Assembly: GCF_018448785.1 (NCBI RefSeq)
Contig: NZ_JAHCLU010000011.1
Location: forward strand, 1-64,000
Direction of reading: 5' to 3'
DNA: 64,000 nt
From: Halomonas jincaotanensis
GTDB taxonomy: Bacteria; Pseudomonadota; Gammaproteobacteria; Pseudomonadales; Halomonadaceae
Positions within the stretch are counted from its first letter, which is position 1. Every line of letters begins with the position of its first letter. The notes beneath the pieces are model-generated. The model did no database searches. It was not told the origin of the DNA and was given only the letters and a program-made list of their open reading frames with translations. Both the position numbers and the translations under genes were made by a program. Shown here piece by piece: positions 20,758 through 48,581 of the stretch.

Positions 20758-22461
20758 TCAAAACAAATGATACCGTTGAGCCAGCGGCAGCTCGGTCGCC
20801 GGTTCACAGGTCAGCAGTTCGCCATCGGCATGAACCTCGTAGGTCTGCGGGTCCACGGTCAGCTCGGGGCAGGCGTCGTTGAGCTTCATGTCGGATTTGC
20901 GCACGCCTCGCACGTTCTTGCAGGCGGTCAGTTCACTGCGCAGGCCCAGCCGCTCGCCGATGCCGGCGTCCAGCGCCGCATGGCTGACGAAGGTCAGGCG
21001 GGTCTGGCTCGCCGCCCGGCCGAAGGCACCGAACATGTAGCGATAGTGGACCGGCTGGGGCGTGGGGATCGAGGCATTGGGGTCGCCCATCGGCGCGGCG
21101 GCAATCATGCCACCCTTGATGATCATGGCCGGCTTGGTGCCGAAGAAGGCCGGTTTCCAGAGCACCAAGTCAGCCAGCTTGCCGACTTCGACCGAGCCCA
21201 CCTCATGTCCGATGCCATGGGTGATGGCTTGATTGATGGTGGTCTTGGCGATATAGCGCTTGGCACGAAAATTGTCGGCGCCCAACGCCTCGTCTTCGGG
21301 CAGCAGGCCGCGCTGCACCTTCATCTTGTGGGCGGTCTGCCAGGTACGGCACACCGACTCACCGACGCGGCCCATCGCCTGCGAATCCGAGGCGATCATC
21401 GAGATCACCCCCAGGTCATGGAGAATATCCTCGGCGGCGATCGTCTCGCGGCGGATGCGCGAATCGGCGAAGGCCACATCCTCGGGTATCTTCGGGTCGA
21501 GGTGATGGCAGACCATCAGCATGTCGAGGTGCTCGTCGATGGTGTTAACGGTATAAGGTCGCGTCGGGTTGGTCGACGACGGCAGCACATAGGGCCTTGC
21601 ACAGGCGGTGATGATGTCCGGCGCATGGCCGCCGCCGGCCCCTTCGGTATGGTAGGTATGGATGCAGCGTTCCTTGAAGGCCGCCAGGGTATCTTCGACG
21701 AAGCCCGACTCATTGAGGGTATCGGTATGGATCGCCACCTGGACATCGTAGCGGTCGGCCACACCCAGGCAGTTGTCGATGGCCGCCGGTGTTGTACCCC
21801 AGTCCTCGTGGAGCTTGAGACCCATGGCACCGGCCTCGAGCTGCGCCTCCAGCGCCTCGGGCAGGCTGGCATTGCCCTTGCCCAGAAAACCGATGTTCAT
21901 GGGCATGTCGTCCACCGCCTGGAGCATCTTGCCGATATGCCACTCGCCGGGCGTGCAGGTGGTCGCATTGGTGCCGGTGGCCGGCCCGGTGCCGCCGCCC
22001 AGCATGGTGGTGATGCCGCTCATCAGCGCCTCCTCCACCAGCTGCGGGCAGACGAAGTGAATGTGGGCATCCAGTGCGCCGGCGGTGAGAATCTTGCCTT
22101 CGCCGGCGATGATCTCGGTGCCGGGACCAATGACGATCTCCACATCGGGCTGGGTATCGGGATTGCCGGCCTTGCCGATCGCGGCGATGCGCCCGCCCTG
22201 GATGCCCACGTCGGCCTTGACGATGCCCCACCAGTCGAGGATCAAGGCGTTGGTGATCACGGTGTCCATCACCGTACCGTCGGCGCGCTGGCTCTGGCCC
22301 ATGCCGTCGCGGATGACCTTGCCGCCGCCGAACTTCACCTCGTCGCCGTAGTGAGTCGCATCGCGCTCCACTTCAATCCACAGATCCGTGTCGGCCAGGC
22401 GCACTCGGTCGCCCACCGTGGGTCCGTACATATCGGCGTAGGCCTGCCGACTGATCTTCAT
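20758..22461 (-). CDS. ureC: urease alpha subunit
   Basis: UreC carries the dinickel active site that hydrolyses urea to ammonia and carbamate. The 567-residue product is full length. Expected ligands are all present: His133 and His135 (DAHIHF), the carbamylated Lys216 (GLKLHEDWG), His245, His271 and Asp359. The flap region is also present (MVCHHLD, His319 acting as base). Numbering runs one lower than Klebsiella. The start codon overlaps the ureB stop (ATGA). A long frame on the opposite strand (20659-22560) is an antisense shadow. No missing residue was seen, so the enzyme should be active. Confidence 0.99.
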
Positions 22462-43908: not shown

Positions 43909-44655
43909 TTATTCTGCCTTTAACAGCGGCCTCAAGTTATCGATGAGATAGCGGTCGTCGAACTCCGCTTCGCCTACCAGCGCCTCGAGATTCGGTATTA
44001 CCACGTCGTGGCGTTCACGATGCACCAGACCTTCACGGCTCAGAGTAGTGAAGGTGCGGCTGACATGTACCGAACTAAGCCCCAGCAGATCGGCGAGAAG
44101 CTCCTGCGACAACGGCAGACGCAGATTGCAACCGCTTTCGATTCCGGTTCCGGTTTGTCGCAGCCGCTGGTGCATTTCAAGCAGAAAGTGCGCCATTTTC
44201 TTTCTGGCACTGCGCCGCGCAATGTTCACCAGCCTTTCGGTCATCAGCACCTGCTGGCGACTGGCAATGGCAAACATCACGGCTGTCAGGGTAAGAGATT
44301 GTCGGAATAACGCCATGATCCTGTGATGAGGAAAACAACAGATAACGCCATCCTCGATCATTCGCACGCCGGCCAAACGCCTGGAAAACGCGAACTCCCT
44401 GAGACCGATAATATCCCCAGGCAGGAATACCTCGAGGATCTGTCGAGAGCCATTTTCGAGGTGTCGATAGGAGTAGGCCCAGCCAGTGCGAAGCGTATAG
44501 AAGTCCTCAGCAGCATCGTTTTCTTCCCAAAGGGACTCCCCCGCCTTAACCTCAGTAGGACTCTGCTCGAGCTCGTCGAGCAGGGCTTTTTCTTCCTTCG
44601 TCAGAACGCAGTAATGGCTGAAATGACGAATGATACAACTGTCTTGATCTTCCAC
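43909..44655 (-). CDS. Crp/Fnr-family transcriptional regulator
   Basis: The 248-residue product has an N-terminal cyclic-nucleotide-binding-like beta roll (about residues 25-140; LRTGWAYSYRHLENGSRQILEVFLPGDIIGL). A C-terminal Crp-type winged helix follows with recognition region LSQELLADLLGLSSVHVSRTFTTLSREGLV. Only two N-terminal cysteines are present (in SCIIRHFSHYC), not the four-cysteine pattern of FNR/Anr, and the cAMP-contact residues of CRP are not evident, so the signal is unknown. I place the start at the GTG at 44655 because AGAGGAAGG precedes it; ATG codons at 44679 and 44736 lack such a site. It lies downstream of the predicted sRNA. Confidence 0.85.
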   Translation of the reverse strand: MEDQDSCIIRHFSHYCVLTKEEKALLDELEQSPTEVKAGESLWEENDAAEDFYTLRTGWAYSYRHLENGSRQILEVFLPGDIIGLREFAFSRRLAGVRMIEDGVICCFPHHRIMALFRQSLTLTAVMFAIASRQQVLMTERLVNIARRSARKKMAHFLLEMHQRLRQTGTGIESGCNLRLPLSQELLADLLGLSSVHVSRTFTTLSREGLVHRERHDVVIPNLEALVGEAEFDDRYLIDNLRPLLKAE

Positions 44656-44859
44656 GGTGGCCTTCCTCTGGTAAGCCATAGGCGACACATTCGACTGGGA
44701 ACCCACTGCATACTGCCTAGAGGCTAACTTTAGCATTTCTTATTCAGTAAAAGAAAAATACAGTATTCCTCCCTACCATCGTGTTTACCGACTGCCCCGC
44801 TCACCGCTGCTTGACGACTTTCATGCTAGGAACACCAGGCACCTGAACACCTGCAGACG

Positions 44860-44887
44860 AAAAAAGCCCGGCCTTTCGGCCGGGCTT
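44860..44887 (-). terminator. intrinsic terminator of the predicted sRNA
   Basis: On the minus strand AAGCCCGGCC / GGCCGGGCTT form a 10-bp perfect stem with a GAAA tetraloop followed by TTTTTTCG. No coding gene ends within 450 bp upstream on this strand, so it probably ends a short RNA. Confidence 0.9.
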
Positions 44888-45029
44888 GAACACCGCTTTC
44901 CTTGGCAGTTCTCAACGAGCGTCTTGCTCGGGCATCCCTTGGTCAATGGGCGTCCCTGCCCGGCATTCCCTTTGGAGCCACTCCCTTGCTCGATATGATC
45001 AGTATCCCACCTTTCCAGCAGTTTTCTAC
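44860..45029 (-). ncRNA. predicted CsrB/RsmZ-like CsrA-sequestering small RNA
   Basis: The minus strand from about 45029 to 44860 has no open frame but seven GGA motifs in about 150 nt, most as ARGGA or AGGGA. Several sit in hairpin loops: GGGC-AGGGAC-GCCC, GAGC-AAGGGAGTG-GCTC and ACTGC-CAAGGAAA-GCGGT. It ends in a strong intrinsic terminator. TAACAT (45036-45041) is a possible -10, giving the approximate 5' end. This is the build of CsrB/RsmY/RsmZ RNAs, which titrate the translational regulator CsrA/RsmA. No canonical GacA box (TGTAAG-N6-CTTACA) was found upstream. The exact ends are estimates. Confidence 0.65.
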
Positions 45030-45290
45030 TAACGCATGTTATGAAAATAAAAATAATTTAGGGTTATTGTAATCCATGTTAATCCGTACTCGCTAGGTAA
45101 TCGACGCCAGACTTTCGAAATGAAAATAACACTACACTTCATTCTCAAATCAGTAAATTTTTAACAGTTGACACATAGTTTCTTTCATAACATTAGGCGT
45201 TTTTAACCCTTTTTATTCGTAGCGACATGGACGAAGAATTATCGCAAATTCAGTTCGTTGTCACGATGACTTCCAGCTACCTCAAACCAC

Positions 45291-45361
45291 TATCCTGCCA
45301 CTACTTATCCTGCCACTACTATCTTGCCACTACTATCTTGCCACTACTATCTTGTGACTAC
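45291..45361. repeat. 14-bp tandem repeat, five units, at the 3' end of the MATE gene
   Basis: Units TATCYTGCCACTAC start at 45291 (15 bp, one extra T), 45306, 45320, 45334 and 45348. The last unit runs through the MATE stop codon and its final codons, so the repeat array begins inside the gene and continues downstream. Confidence 0.9.
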
Positions 45362-46666
45362 GGCAGGCTTGCGCCGTGGGCTTGCCAGGATAAGTCTCAA
45401 TAGTTGCCAGGCCGCGAGACCCGCCAGCAAGTTGCCTATCGCCGCCCCGATTGCCAGACCCACCAAACCATCCGACAGCCATGCCCCTGCCCAGAGGCAG
45501 GGGAGATAAAAGACGAACAATCGCGCCCCGGACATCAGCATGGCGCGCAAGGGCCAACCCAGCGCGTTACCTGCCGAAACGATCAGCATGCAGATACCCA
45601 GTGCCGCATAACTCGGCAGAAGAAAGCGAATCAATGTCGCCAGGTCGTCTCGCACCTCGGGATTGCCCGACAGTGCCAATGCCACCCAAGGAGATAAGGC
45701 CGCCATGAGGATACCAAGTGAAAGCTGCCAGACCACCACCACCTTGAGTGCCAATTGCAACAGCCGGCTTATCTGATCCCAGTCGCCAGTACCATAGCAA
45801 CGACCCAGCCAGGGAGGTAACGACATGGTCATGGCCAACACCACCATAAGCGACAACGTCTCTAACCGACTGGCAAGCCCCCAGGCCGCCACCTGCGTCT
45901 CGCCCAGGGTCGCCACCACCGAGATCGCCAGCATGGCCGCCAAGGGCGGCATCAGTTGGCTGATCATGGCCGGGCCGGCAATACCGAAAAAGGCACCGGC
46001 CGACTGGCGCATCTCACTAATCAGGCCCGTTCGCGATAGCCAGTCGGTGCCCATCAAACGCTTGGCCAGTACCACCAGCCCGGTAGAAAACGCCGCTACC
46101 GTTGCCCAGGCCGCTCCCGGCAGCCCCATGCCGCCCCAGGGGCCTACACCAAAGATCAACAAGGGATCCAATACCACATTGATCAAACTGGTGATTACCA
46201 TCATCTTTCCTGGCAGCCAGGTATCGCCATGCGCACGGAAAAGGCTATAACCGAAATAGAGCACCGCTCCCGACCAGGCCGCCAGCAGCTGGGGTGCCCA
46301 GTAGGCGCGAATCAATTCCAGGCTCGTCGCATTGGCCCCCAGTAGGGTGAATATCCGCTCTTGAGCTAACCAAAGGCCTATCGCCAGTAGCGCAATGATT
46401 GCGCCGCCAGCCAACAACACCAGGCTGCCCAACCGGTGGGCCCTAGCGTGTTGATCGGCACCGAGGGCACGCGAGATCAGGGCGGCGATGGCGATCCCTA
46501 ATCCCACCTGAATCCCGATGACCAGAAACGACAAGGGAAAGGTGAATGACTGCGCTGCCAACGGGGCGGTGCCCAACCGGGCAATAAAGGCACTATCGAC
46601 CAGTTGAAAACCGAGCAGCGCCAGCACGCCAATCGCCATTGGCCATGTCTGGCGCCAAAGCGTCAT
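45347..46666 (-). CDS. MATE-family efflux transporter
   Basis: The product is a MATE (DinF/NorM-type) antiporter of 439 residues from the chosen start, with twelve hydrophobic segments. It opens MTLWRQTWPMAIGVLALLGFQLVDSAFIARLG, the usual MATE helix 1 with a Gln/Asp pair. FGYSLFRAHGDTW and NVVLDPLLIFGVGPWGGMGLPGAAWATV are the internal family signatures. Substrates (cationic drugs, metabolites) cannot be predicted. The start is uncertain: ATG 46666 has only a weak site, and a GTG at 46699 has GGAG upstream. The open frame to 46789 overlaps the neighbouring gene and is unlikely to be used. The C-terminal codons lie in the tandem repeat. Confidence 0.88.
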   Translation of the reverse strand: MTLWRQTWPMAIGVLALLGFQLVDSAFIARLGTAPLAAQSFTFPLSFLVIGIQVGLGIAIAALISRALGADQHARAHRLGSLVLLAGGAIIALLAIGLWLAQERIFTLLGANATSLELIRAYWAPQLLAAWSGAVLYFGYSLFRAHGDTWLPGKMMVITSLINVVLDPLLIFGVGPWGGMGLPGAAWATVAAFSTGLVVLAKRLMGTDWLSRTGLISEMRQSAGAFFGIAGPAMISQLMPPLAAMLAISVVATLGETQVAAWGLASRLETLSLMVVLAMTMSLPPWLGRCYGTGDWDQISRLLQLALKVVVVWQLSLGILMAALSPWVALALSGNPEVRDDLATLIRFLLPSYAALGICMLIVSAGNALGWPLRAMLMSGARLFVFYLPCLWAGAWLSDGLVGLAIGAAIGNLLAGLAAWQLLRLILASPRRKPAVVTR

Positions 46667-46754
46667 CCCCAGCGAGTCATGGGCTCCGGCTCGAATCACG
46701 ACGGCTCCGACGTCGATAAACAGAGGGGTATGGTAAGCGAAACCACGAGAAAAC

Positions 46755-48581
46755 TCAGCTCGACAAGCCTGACTGTGCCGGCACGACACCCTCGATGAGA
46801 CGCTCGATGCAATCTGCCGTCATCGGGCGGAAGAAATAGAACCCTTGCACCAGATCACAATGAATTTCACGGACCAAGTTGAGCTGCTCGATACTCTCCA
46901 CGCCTTCCGCGACGACCTCGAGCCCCAGGCGGTGACCGATGAAGACGGATGCCTCCATTATCGCCCGATCCTTGGGCTGCAAGGGTGCATCCCGCACGAA
47001 ACTTCGATCGATCTTGAGCGCCGTAACCGGGAAATACTTTAAGTAGCTGAGTGAGGAATAGCCGGTACCGAAGTCATCGATCGCAATGCGAACCCCTTGG
47101 TCGTGCAACGAGCGAAGGCCAGTGAGTATTCGACCATCGGCTTCGATCAGAACATTCTCGGTGAGCTCGATGCCAATATGTCGAGGCCCCAGCCGGTGAC
47201 GATCGAGGCACGACTCGAAACGCTGAAACACATCGAGTCGGTTGATCTGCCGACCGGAGAAGTTGATGTCGATACGTTCGATTGGCAGACCGATATCCCG
47301 CCAGCGGGCTCGCTGCCGGCAGGCCTCCTCCATCACCCAGTCACCGATGCGGTGAATCAGGTCGGAGCGTTCGGCAACCGGAATGAATTCCGCGGGTGAG
47401 ACCGCTGGCCCTATAGAAGGCTCCCAACGCAACAACGCTTCAAGATTTTCGATCCGACCACTGACCGCTGACACTTGCGGCTGGTAGTGCAGACAAAACT
47501 CGCCCTCATCAAGGGCACGTTCCAGGCGATCGACCAGGCGATGTTTATTCAGTAGTTCGTCATGCAATTGCTGGTTGAAAAACAATACACTACCGCGGCC
47601 AACGAGCTTGGCACGATTCTTGGCCAGATCGGCATTGTGCATCATCTCTCTTGCCGATTCGCCGTTAGCAGGAAACACGCTGATGCCCAGACATGCTGTC
47701 ACCTTGCGCCTGTGGTTATCCAACGCGAAGGGCTCGCGCAGGATCTCCTGAATCTTTTTCACCAGACGGTTGATGGCCTTTTCATCGTGCTTGCCGGGAA
47801 AGGCCATCACGAACTCATCGCTGGAGACTCGCGAGAGCATGTCGGTGGCTCGCTGGCCGTTACGCAGTCGACGCGAAAGCTCCACCAGCAACTGATCTCC
47901 CTGCTCATACCCCAATGCATCGTTGATCTCGACGAAGTGATCGACATCCAGATAGATCAGTACCAGAGACCGCTCGTGCCAACGGCATTCCTCAAGGGTT
48001 TCATCGAGGCGCTCTTCGAAGGTCTGGCGATTGGGCAGACGTGTCAGGCTATCGAAACGAGTGGCGAAATCCAGTTCGCGGCGGGCCCGCTTCTGATCAG
48101 AGAGATCCACATCGACGCAGAACATCAGCGGCTCGTCGGTATGCTCGTTGAGCATCACATGATGAGAGAAAACGGGCACCAGCTCACCACTGCGATGAAG
48201 CAACTCAAGTTCATCAGCAGGTATTTCAAGCCCTTCCCGCATCCAGTCAAGATGGGCCTGAATCACGGGTTCGCGCATCGCTGGTGGAATGATCAGGTCT
48301 TCAAGCGGGCGTCCGAACGCCTCATCGGCTGAATAGCCATAGAGACGAGCACTCGCCTCGTTCCAGTAGATGACCCGCCGTTCGCGATCGTATCCCTGCA
48401 CGGCCACCTTGGGCAGGCTTTCCAGCAAAGCTCGAAAACGCTGCTCGCTCTCAAGATACTGGCGTCGAACGAGCTCCACCTCCCCCCGCGTCGATCTCTC
48501 GAAAGGGTAAAGGTGCTTTATGCTCCCACGCCGCGGTAGCTTTCTCAGCCACCTCCGCAGACGAGTGTCACCACCAAGCAC
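46755..48581 (-). CDS. PAS-GGDEF-EAL protein, probable cyclic-di-GMP phosphodiesterase
   Basis: The 608-residue cytosolic protein has a PAS domain (about 45-165, FRALLESLPKVAVQGYDRERRVIYWNEAS), a GGDEF domain (170-335) and an EAL domain (350-600). The diguanylate cyclase motif is degenerate: SSDEF at 253-257 in place of GGDEF. The EAL domain is intact: ENLEALLRW (EAL 381-383), the DDFGTGYSSLSYLK loop with metal-binding acids, and EGVES. Net activity is therefore predicted to be c-di-GMP hydrolysis, with the GGDEF domain perhaps regulatory. No membrane segment is seen. The start is a GTG at 48581 with GAGG upstream. Confidence 0.92.
   Translation of the reverse strand: MLGGDTRLRRWLRKLPRRGSIKHLYPFERSTRGEVELVRRQYLESEQRFRALLESLPKVAVQGYDRERRVIYWNEASARLYGYSADEAFGRPLEDLIIPPAMREPVIQAHLDWMREGLEIPADELELLHRSGELVPVFSHHVMLNEHTDEPLMFCVDVDLSDQKRARRELDFATRFDSLTRLPNRQTFEERLDETLEECRWHERSLVLIYLDVDHFVEINDALGYEQGDQLLVELSRRLRNGQRATDMLSRVSSDEFVMAFPGKHDEKAINRLVKKIQEILREPFALDNHRRKVTACLGISVFPANGESAREMMHNADLAKNRAKLVGRGSVLFFNQQLHDELLNKHRLVDRLERALDEGEFCLHYQPQVSAVSGRIENLEALLRWEPSIGPAVSPAEFIPVAERSDLIHRIGDWVMEEACRQRARWRDIGLPIERIDINFSGRQINRLDVFQRFESCLDRHRLGPRHIGIELTENVLIEADGRILTGLRSLHDQGVRIAIDDFGTGYSSLSYLKYFPVTALKIDRSFVRDAPLQPKDRAIMEASVFIGHRLGLEVVAEGVESIEQLNLVREIHCDLVQGFYFFRPMTADCIERLIEGVVPAQSGLSS

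Follow-up and report, generated by a model that had tools for sequence, protein, structure and literature searches.

The locus at positions 44861 to 44994 on the minus strand of the window (the whole stretch of 64,000 nt analysed here) is very probably a gene for a CsrA-decoy RNA, judging from homology and architecture. The original prediction of a CsrA/RsmA-titrating RNA is strongly supported by its homology to a covarying family of terminator-ended RNAs with multiple GGA motifs, about half of which carry a strict GacA box. The sequence family, its covariation, the register of the GGA motifs, the terminator, the presence of csrA and gacA in the genome and the presence or absence of boxes upstream of the copies are established. 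The features of the locus are given below, where R1 is a covariance model built from 12 relatives with the window excluded, and the counts of GGA refer to 150 aligned copies of the family.

44861..44994, minus strand: predicted Rsm/Csr-type RNA, conserved body of 134 nt (R1 match and identity to Halomonas korlensis)
44975..44991, minus strand: hairpin 1, GAGC-AAGGGAGTG-GCTC, GGA at 44984 (GGA column in 140 of 150 copies; helix 1 covaries)
44967..44969, minus strand: linker GGA 1 (AAAGGGAA), GGA in 148 of 150 copies
44948..44961, minus strand: hairpin 2, GGGC-AGGGAC-GCCC, GGA at 44955 (GGA in 130 of 150 copies; helix 2 covaries)
44935..44937, minus strand: linker GGA 2 (CCAAGGGATG), GGA in 148 of 150 copies
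44916..44930, minus strand: hairpin 3, CGAGC-AAGAC-GCTCG (family loop GGA in 140 of 150 copies)
44892..44909, minus strand: hairpin 4, ACTGC-CAAGGAAA-GCGGT, GGA at 44901 (GGA column in 145 of 150 copies)
44887-44864, minus strand: intrinsic terminator, 10-bp GAAA-loop stem and T-run (44861-44887 identical at 27 of 27 positions in H. korlensis)
45053..45082, minus strand: weak candidate sigma-70-like promoter, TTAACA / TAAATT or AATTAT (consensus scan)
45347..46789, minus strand: MatE-family transporter gene, upstream on the same strand (Pfam MatE, E 9.4e-37)
43909..44736, minus strand: Crp/Fnr-family gene, downstream on the same strand (Pfam HTH_Crp_2 and cNMP_binding; 89% identical in H. korlensis)

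The seven GGA motifs on which the prediction was founded are present on the minus strand (45016, 45007, 44984, 44969, 44955, 44937 and 44901), five of them as ARGGA, and the 10-bp GAAA-loop terminator with its T-run was found where it had been described. Within the proposed stretch of about 170 nt, the conserved RNA runs from 44994 to 44861, and the H. korlensis orthologue lacks the GGA at 45016 and 45007. The number of GGA alone is unremarkable, seven or more being reached in 617 of 2000 dinucleotide shuffles and in 38 of 2902 segments of the window. The five ARGGA are rare (9 of 2000 shuffles and 2 of 2902 segments), a density per 150 nt that is reached nowhere else in the 64,000 nt. A chance cluster of GGA, against which the count by itself would not suffice, is ruled out by homology and covariation.

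A DNA search of 58 genomes, own genome included, matched nine of them, again own genome included, and most matches share one order of elements: GGA-loop hairpin, linker GGA, hairpin, linker GGA, hairpin, linker GGA and terminator. Three sequences were kept out of R1: L009 and L016, which have a terminator-only look, and L007, which has the same RNA as L006. R1 matches the window at 44994-44861 (minus strand) over model positions 1-130 of 130, with 71.1 bits and E 7e-16. It finds eight full-length copies in the genome, all at E <= 1.2e-11, among which the window copy ranks seventh by score, while the next match has an E of 0.08. Across 90 genomes of the genus, R1 gave matches in at least 28 at E <= 0.001, and a second model, R2, built from 150 copies including that of the window, matched 33 of the 90 at E <= 0.01; 22 of these have four or more copies and three have 13. 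Searches of more than 40 genomes were run with stricter filters; repeating the search under laxer ones on 38 of the 57 unmatched genomes gave weak matches in 4. Of 194 genomes sampled from the order, 17 have a match at E <= 0.001, scores above 60 bits being confined to the same taxonomic family. An origin as mobile or phage cargo was set aside, there being no match in plasmids, phages or (with one exact pattern) viral contigs.

The Rfam models recover none of the copies scanned. PrrB_RsmZ (RF00166) has no match in the genome at E <= 0.001, and the locus itself stays without one up to E 10; no Csr/Rsm model reaches its gathering score in twelve loci holding 25 copies, and none matches at a lax threshold in five loci, four of which repeat RNAs already covered. 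At the window locus there are weak sub-threshold matches only, most of them to the terminator. The covariance-model search proposed as a check returned no Csr/Rsm family for any copy scanned.

The set of copies compared comprises 142 places among the genus R1 matches listed, with those of own genome and of the window entered separately; the 159 copies are 163 matches minus the four weakest (25.2-27.2 bits), and nine of the 159 are absent from the alignment (A3) and the tree. At least five GGA are found in 158 of the 159, and the six GGA columns lie in register in hairpin loops and linkers, each occupied in 130 to 148 of the 150 aligned copies. The four helices of the R1 structure show changes on both sides at 20 of 25 pairs. 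Among the 150 copies, 95.3% of helix cells are paired, against 80.1% in shuffled controls, and two-sided changes are seen in 565 cells (149.5 after shuffling, with none of 500 shuffles reaching 565), although these counts lean towards the R1 structure because the alignment was fitted to it. When the partner is slid by one to three columns, pairing falls from 95% to 51% or less. The terminator helix is 97.9% paired across the family.

At least three GGA hairpins had been proposed, three of them with sequences. The inverted repeats of these three are all present, but the first two loops are absent from the minimum free energy (MFE) fold of the single sequence (-55.1 kcal/mol), where the 5' arm of hairpin 1 pairs with the 3' arm of hairpin 3; the best fold with all family hairpins has -50.7 kcal/mol, a cost of about 4.4 kcal/mol. 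Those two loops are nevertheless supported by the family covariation and by the H. korlensis orthologue, whose predicted fold is the family fold. Hairpin 4 is formed only by the window and H. korlensis copies among four copies folded. The window RNA is a multi-GGA RNA with part of its GGA in hairpin loops, the loops being taken from the covariation of 150 copies and not from the single-sequence fold. Five of the six family GGA sites are present in it. The sixth, in the loop of hairpin 3, has been lost (CAAGAC), where the orthologue has GGGA.

This loss, together with an MFE fold unlike that of the family and the lack of a GacA box (see below), could indicate a decaying, non-functional copy. 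We regard such decay as quite improbable given what has been conserved in H. korlensis, the nearest named relative found, which has seven strong RNA copies and a Crp/Fnr protein 89% identical to that of the window. The RNA is 94% identical between the two genomes and the terminator 100%, whereas identity in the flanking DNA is 81% upstream in the direction of the MATE gene, 87% in the 70 nt before the RNA and 89% downstream in the direction of the Crp/Fnr gene. The five GGA of the window body, whose conservation in a close relative had been suggested as a check, are all kept in the orthologue, which has eight GGA including that of hairpin 3.

Regarding its surroundings, it had been stated that no gene ends nearby that would need the terminator, which needs some qualification, as the same-strand MatE-family gene ends about 350 nt before the RNA. 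With one terminator-like site only between 44600 and 45500 and no GacA box at this copy, the RNA could derive from the MATE transcript, by processing or by a 3' UTR-like origin. A precedent would be RsmW, with 7 GGA, 3 of them in loops, for which descent from a 3' UTR has been suggested (PMC4950607). We consider this origin rather unlikely, since about half of the paralogues have upstream boxes at fixed distances, that is, promoters of their own, and the window RNA is preceded, some 60 nt before it, by a weak promoter-like sequence whose TTAACA and TAAATT are both kept in H. korlensis. The consensus scan that gave this candidate found 3 sites over both strands, against 0.7 expected. Directly after the MATE stop there are also several imperfect tandem units of GATAGTAGTGGCA type (window about 45290-45360, minus strand, by eye).

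Downstream, the RNA lies about 125 nt upstream of the Crp/Fnr gene, in agreement with the location originally described. A second copy in this genome, C23, also precedes a Crp/Fnr-family gene, the two genes being 26% identical, and within the branch of the tree that holds the window copy (see below) 16 of 20 copies share their strand with the closest gene called downstream. These arrangements would suit a cis-acting leader or attenuator of the Crp/Fnr gene in place of a trans-acting decoy. That role is, however, very hard to reconcile with the strong terminator between RNA and gene and with the restricted occurrence of the Crp/Fnr neighbourhood, which heuristic gene calls place at 4 of 159 copies, all of them in H. 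korlensis or this genome. In L018-L021, four other named genomes, R1 finds nothing alongside the Crp/Fnr homologue, although clear matches lie elsewhere in three of them. Adjacency to Crp/Fnr as a rule for the genus was likewise abandoned, the heuristic gene calls giving it for 2 of 24 genomes.

The control of the decoy RNAs has been approached through the GacA box, TGTAAG-N6-CTTACA, which in Pseudomonas is placed at -75 and -196 for rsmY and rsmZ (PMC4950607). Under this strict consensus, 81 of 159 copies score at least 10 of 12, compared with 1 of 159 after shuffling, with starts concentrated at two distances before the conserved body (41 of 81 at -93 to -99 and 38 of 81 at -70 to -74). All eight copies of own genome score 7 to 9 of 12, within the shuffled range, and near the window locus there is no box at up to 3 mismatches. 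A 15-position consensus was then loosened after viewing the family copies, and it is only under it that the degenerate boxes of own genome stand out: five copies reach 14 with boxes of TATCGGCAATTTCCTACA type at -65 to -74, another has 11, and the window and C23 copies have 10, which is no better than shuffled DNA (mostly 8 to 10). H. korlensis shows the same pattern, the orthologues of the window and C23 copies scoring 8 and 9, and the other five copies 14 or 15 in four cases and 9 in one. In the raw scans, positions are counted from 40 nt before the body for the loosened box and from 10 nt for the palindrome described below; the box distances given here are true ones. The shuffles for the strict box, the loosened box and the palindrome preserve base composition only.

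In a FastTree tree the window copy, C23 and their two H. korlensis orthologues fall within a branch of 20 copies with a local support of 0.84, in a tree that rests on about 130 columns and has some nearby nodes without support. At a loosened score of at least 12 of 15, a box is found in 2 of the 20 copies of this branch, 106 of the 138 others and 1 of 158 shuffled sequences (L134, with too little upstream DNA, is omitted, and the nine copies outside the tree are counted among the others). As the window copy lacks a GacA box, likewise its H. korlensis orthologue and 18 of the 20 copies of the branch, the window RNA is probably not a direct output of Gac. The claim that it would be the Gac/Rsm output RNA of this organism is not supported: the genome has eight copies, and a GacA-like box, missing here, is kept in degenerate form by five sisters, which are likelier candidates for direct GacS/GacA outputs.

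Two other elements were seen upstream of the copies. A 14-bp palindrome, TTAAY-N4-RTTAA, scores at least 9 of 10 in 12 of 15 upstream regions of this genome and H. korlensis and in 3.3% of shuffles, starting about 48 nt before the body in 10 of the 12 and about 40 nt further out in the window copy and its orthologue. Its spacing is one that we take to resemble a Crp/Fnr-type site. Binding by Crp/Fnr was not carried beyond an idea, the element being enriched and nothing tying it to that protein. Some box-less copies of the branch of 20 (L122, L157 and L128 among them) have in common, some 80 nt upstream of the body, a TTGACA/TTGTCA-AAAGCTTT element that is possibly a plain promoter element.

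The genome encodes both partner proteins examined, CsrA and GacA. There is a single match to csrA at E <= 0.001 (121 bits, 65 aa), located after an aspartokinase-like ORF (neighbour by eye), and one gacA, followed by a UvrC-like ORF (by eye), which scores 270 bits against the UvrY/SirA/GacA family (curated cut-off 280), the next response regulator having 63 bits. The idea that presence of the RNA family follows gacA was not borne out, since a gacA orthologue is found in 89 of the 90 genomes of the genus, including most of those without a recognisable copy, and a model match in 33. In the mechanism that we propose, an RNA of 134 nt or more with a Rho-independent terminator would be transcribed from the window locus, its five ARGGA sites in hairpin loops and linkers would bind CsrA dimers, and this titration would free CsrA-repressed mRNAs. 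The five paralogues whose body is preceded, at about 65-74 nt, by a degenerate box of the GacA type would be the likelier direct responders to GacS/GacA, and the window copy, from its membership with the H. korlensis orthologue in a mostly box-less branch, would probably be an extra decoy under a control other than direct GacA.

In size class, GGA in loops and linkers, intrinsic terminator and multicopy habit, the family resembles RsmX, RsmY and RsmZ of Pseudomonas and RsmZ1-7 and RsmY1-2 of Azotobacter vinelandii, and it shares with the Gac/Rsm RNAs the GacA boxes (TGTAAG-N6-CTTACA; PMC4950607) in about half of its members. It differs from RsmX/Y/Z in having no PrrB_RsmZ match in this genome and, for the window copy, no GacA box. 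With CsrB and CsrC of Enterobacteria and Vibrio it has in common the logic of a multi-GGA decoy, although at about 135 nt with six family sites it is unlike those of E. coli, to which 18 and 11 CsrA sites are assigned (PMC7366521). The different regulation predicted for sibling copies has a reported parallel in csrB1-4 of Vibrio tasmaniensis (PMC6262261). RsmW of P. aeruginosa, also with 7 GGA and downstream of a same-strand gene, has only a weak and distant GacA site (PMC4950607); the likeness is one of description, and a point of difference is that about half of the relatives of the window RNA in its family are GacA-boxed.

As for copy number, up to 13 model matches per genome in Halomonas compare with nine RNAs in A. 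vinelandii (RsmZ1-7 and RsmY1-2) and seven in P. syringae DC3000 (RsmX1-5, RsmY and RsmZ), as listed in PMC7366521. From these sources we infer that 13 exceeds all known cases, the figure being one of model matches at E <= 0.01 and not of proven genes. The same comparative-genomics paper of 2020 lists the sRNA partners of GacS-GacA of Halomonas anticariensis as 'Unknown' (PMC7366521), and no such Halomonas RNA is described in the literature covered on CsrA, Gac and Rsm/Csr RNAs of Halomonas and Chromohalobacter, in which subscription journals are thinly represented. The family gives concrete candidates for the sRNA partners of the Halomonas Gac system and shows why Rfam scans miss them, and a genome with eight copies, two promoter classes and one csrA is a natural system for asking why decoy RNAs multiply. 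It is tempting, if speculative and on balance doubtful, to see in Halomonas the largest CsrA-decoy family so far, with up to 13 genes per genome, one group of them having GacA boxes and another branch being mostly without. This second branch, including the window RNA, would wire the same decoy to other inputs, perhaps the Crp/Fnr regulators preceded by two copies in this genome, so that one CsrA would integrate many signals through promoter diversity alone.

Other neighbours of the copies deserve mention. A gene for an SOS-associated peptidase (SRAP) and a convergent umuC-like gene flank 10 of the 159 copies (L066, L067, L069 and relatives), and umuC lies downstream of 21 copies in 16 of 24 genomes, both by heuristic gene calls. 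In the SRAP genes beside two copies of own genome (L067 1585-3774 and L069 8242-9980), ORFs of mobile elements appear to interrupt the coding sequence; judged by eye, they comprise an IS110-type transposase and an ORF of group II intron type. For nine copies in four genomes the nearest neighbour is a SugE-like gene of the small multidrug resistance type, and a Guanidine-II riboswitch is located just downstream of an RNA copy (L102 7130-7180, minus strand). Within the window, the sole RNA match at gathering level is that of 5_ureB_sRNA (RF02514, 87.7 bits) at 22029-22315 on the plus strand, which may come from conserved ureB coding sequence only.
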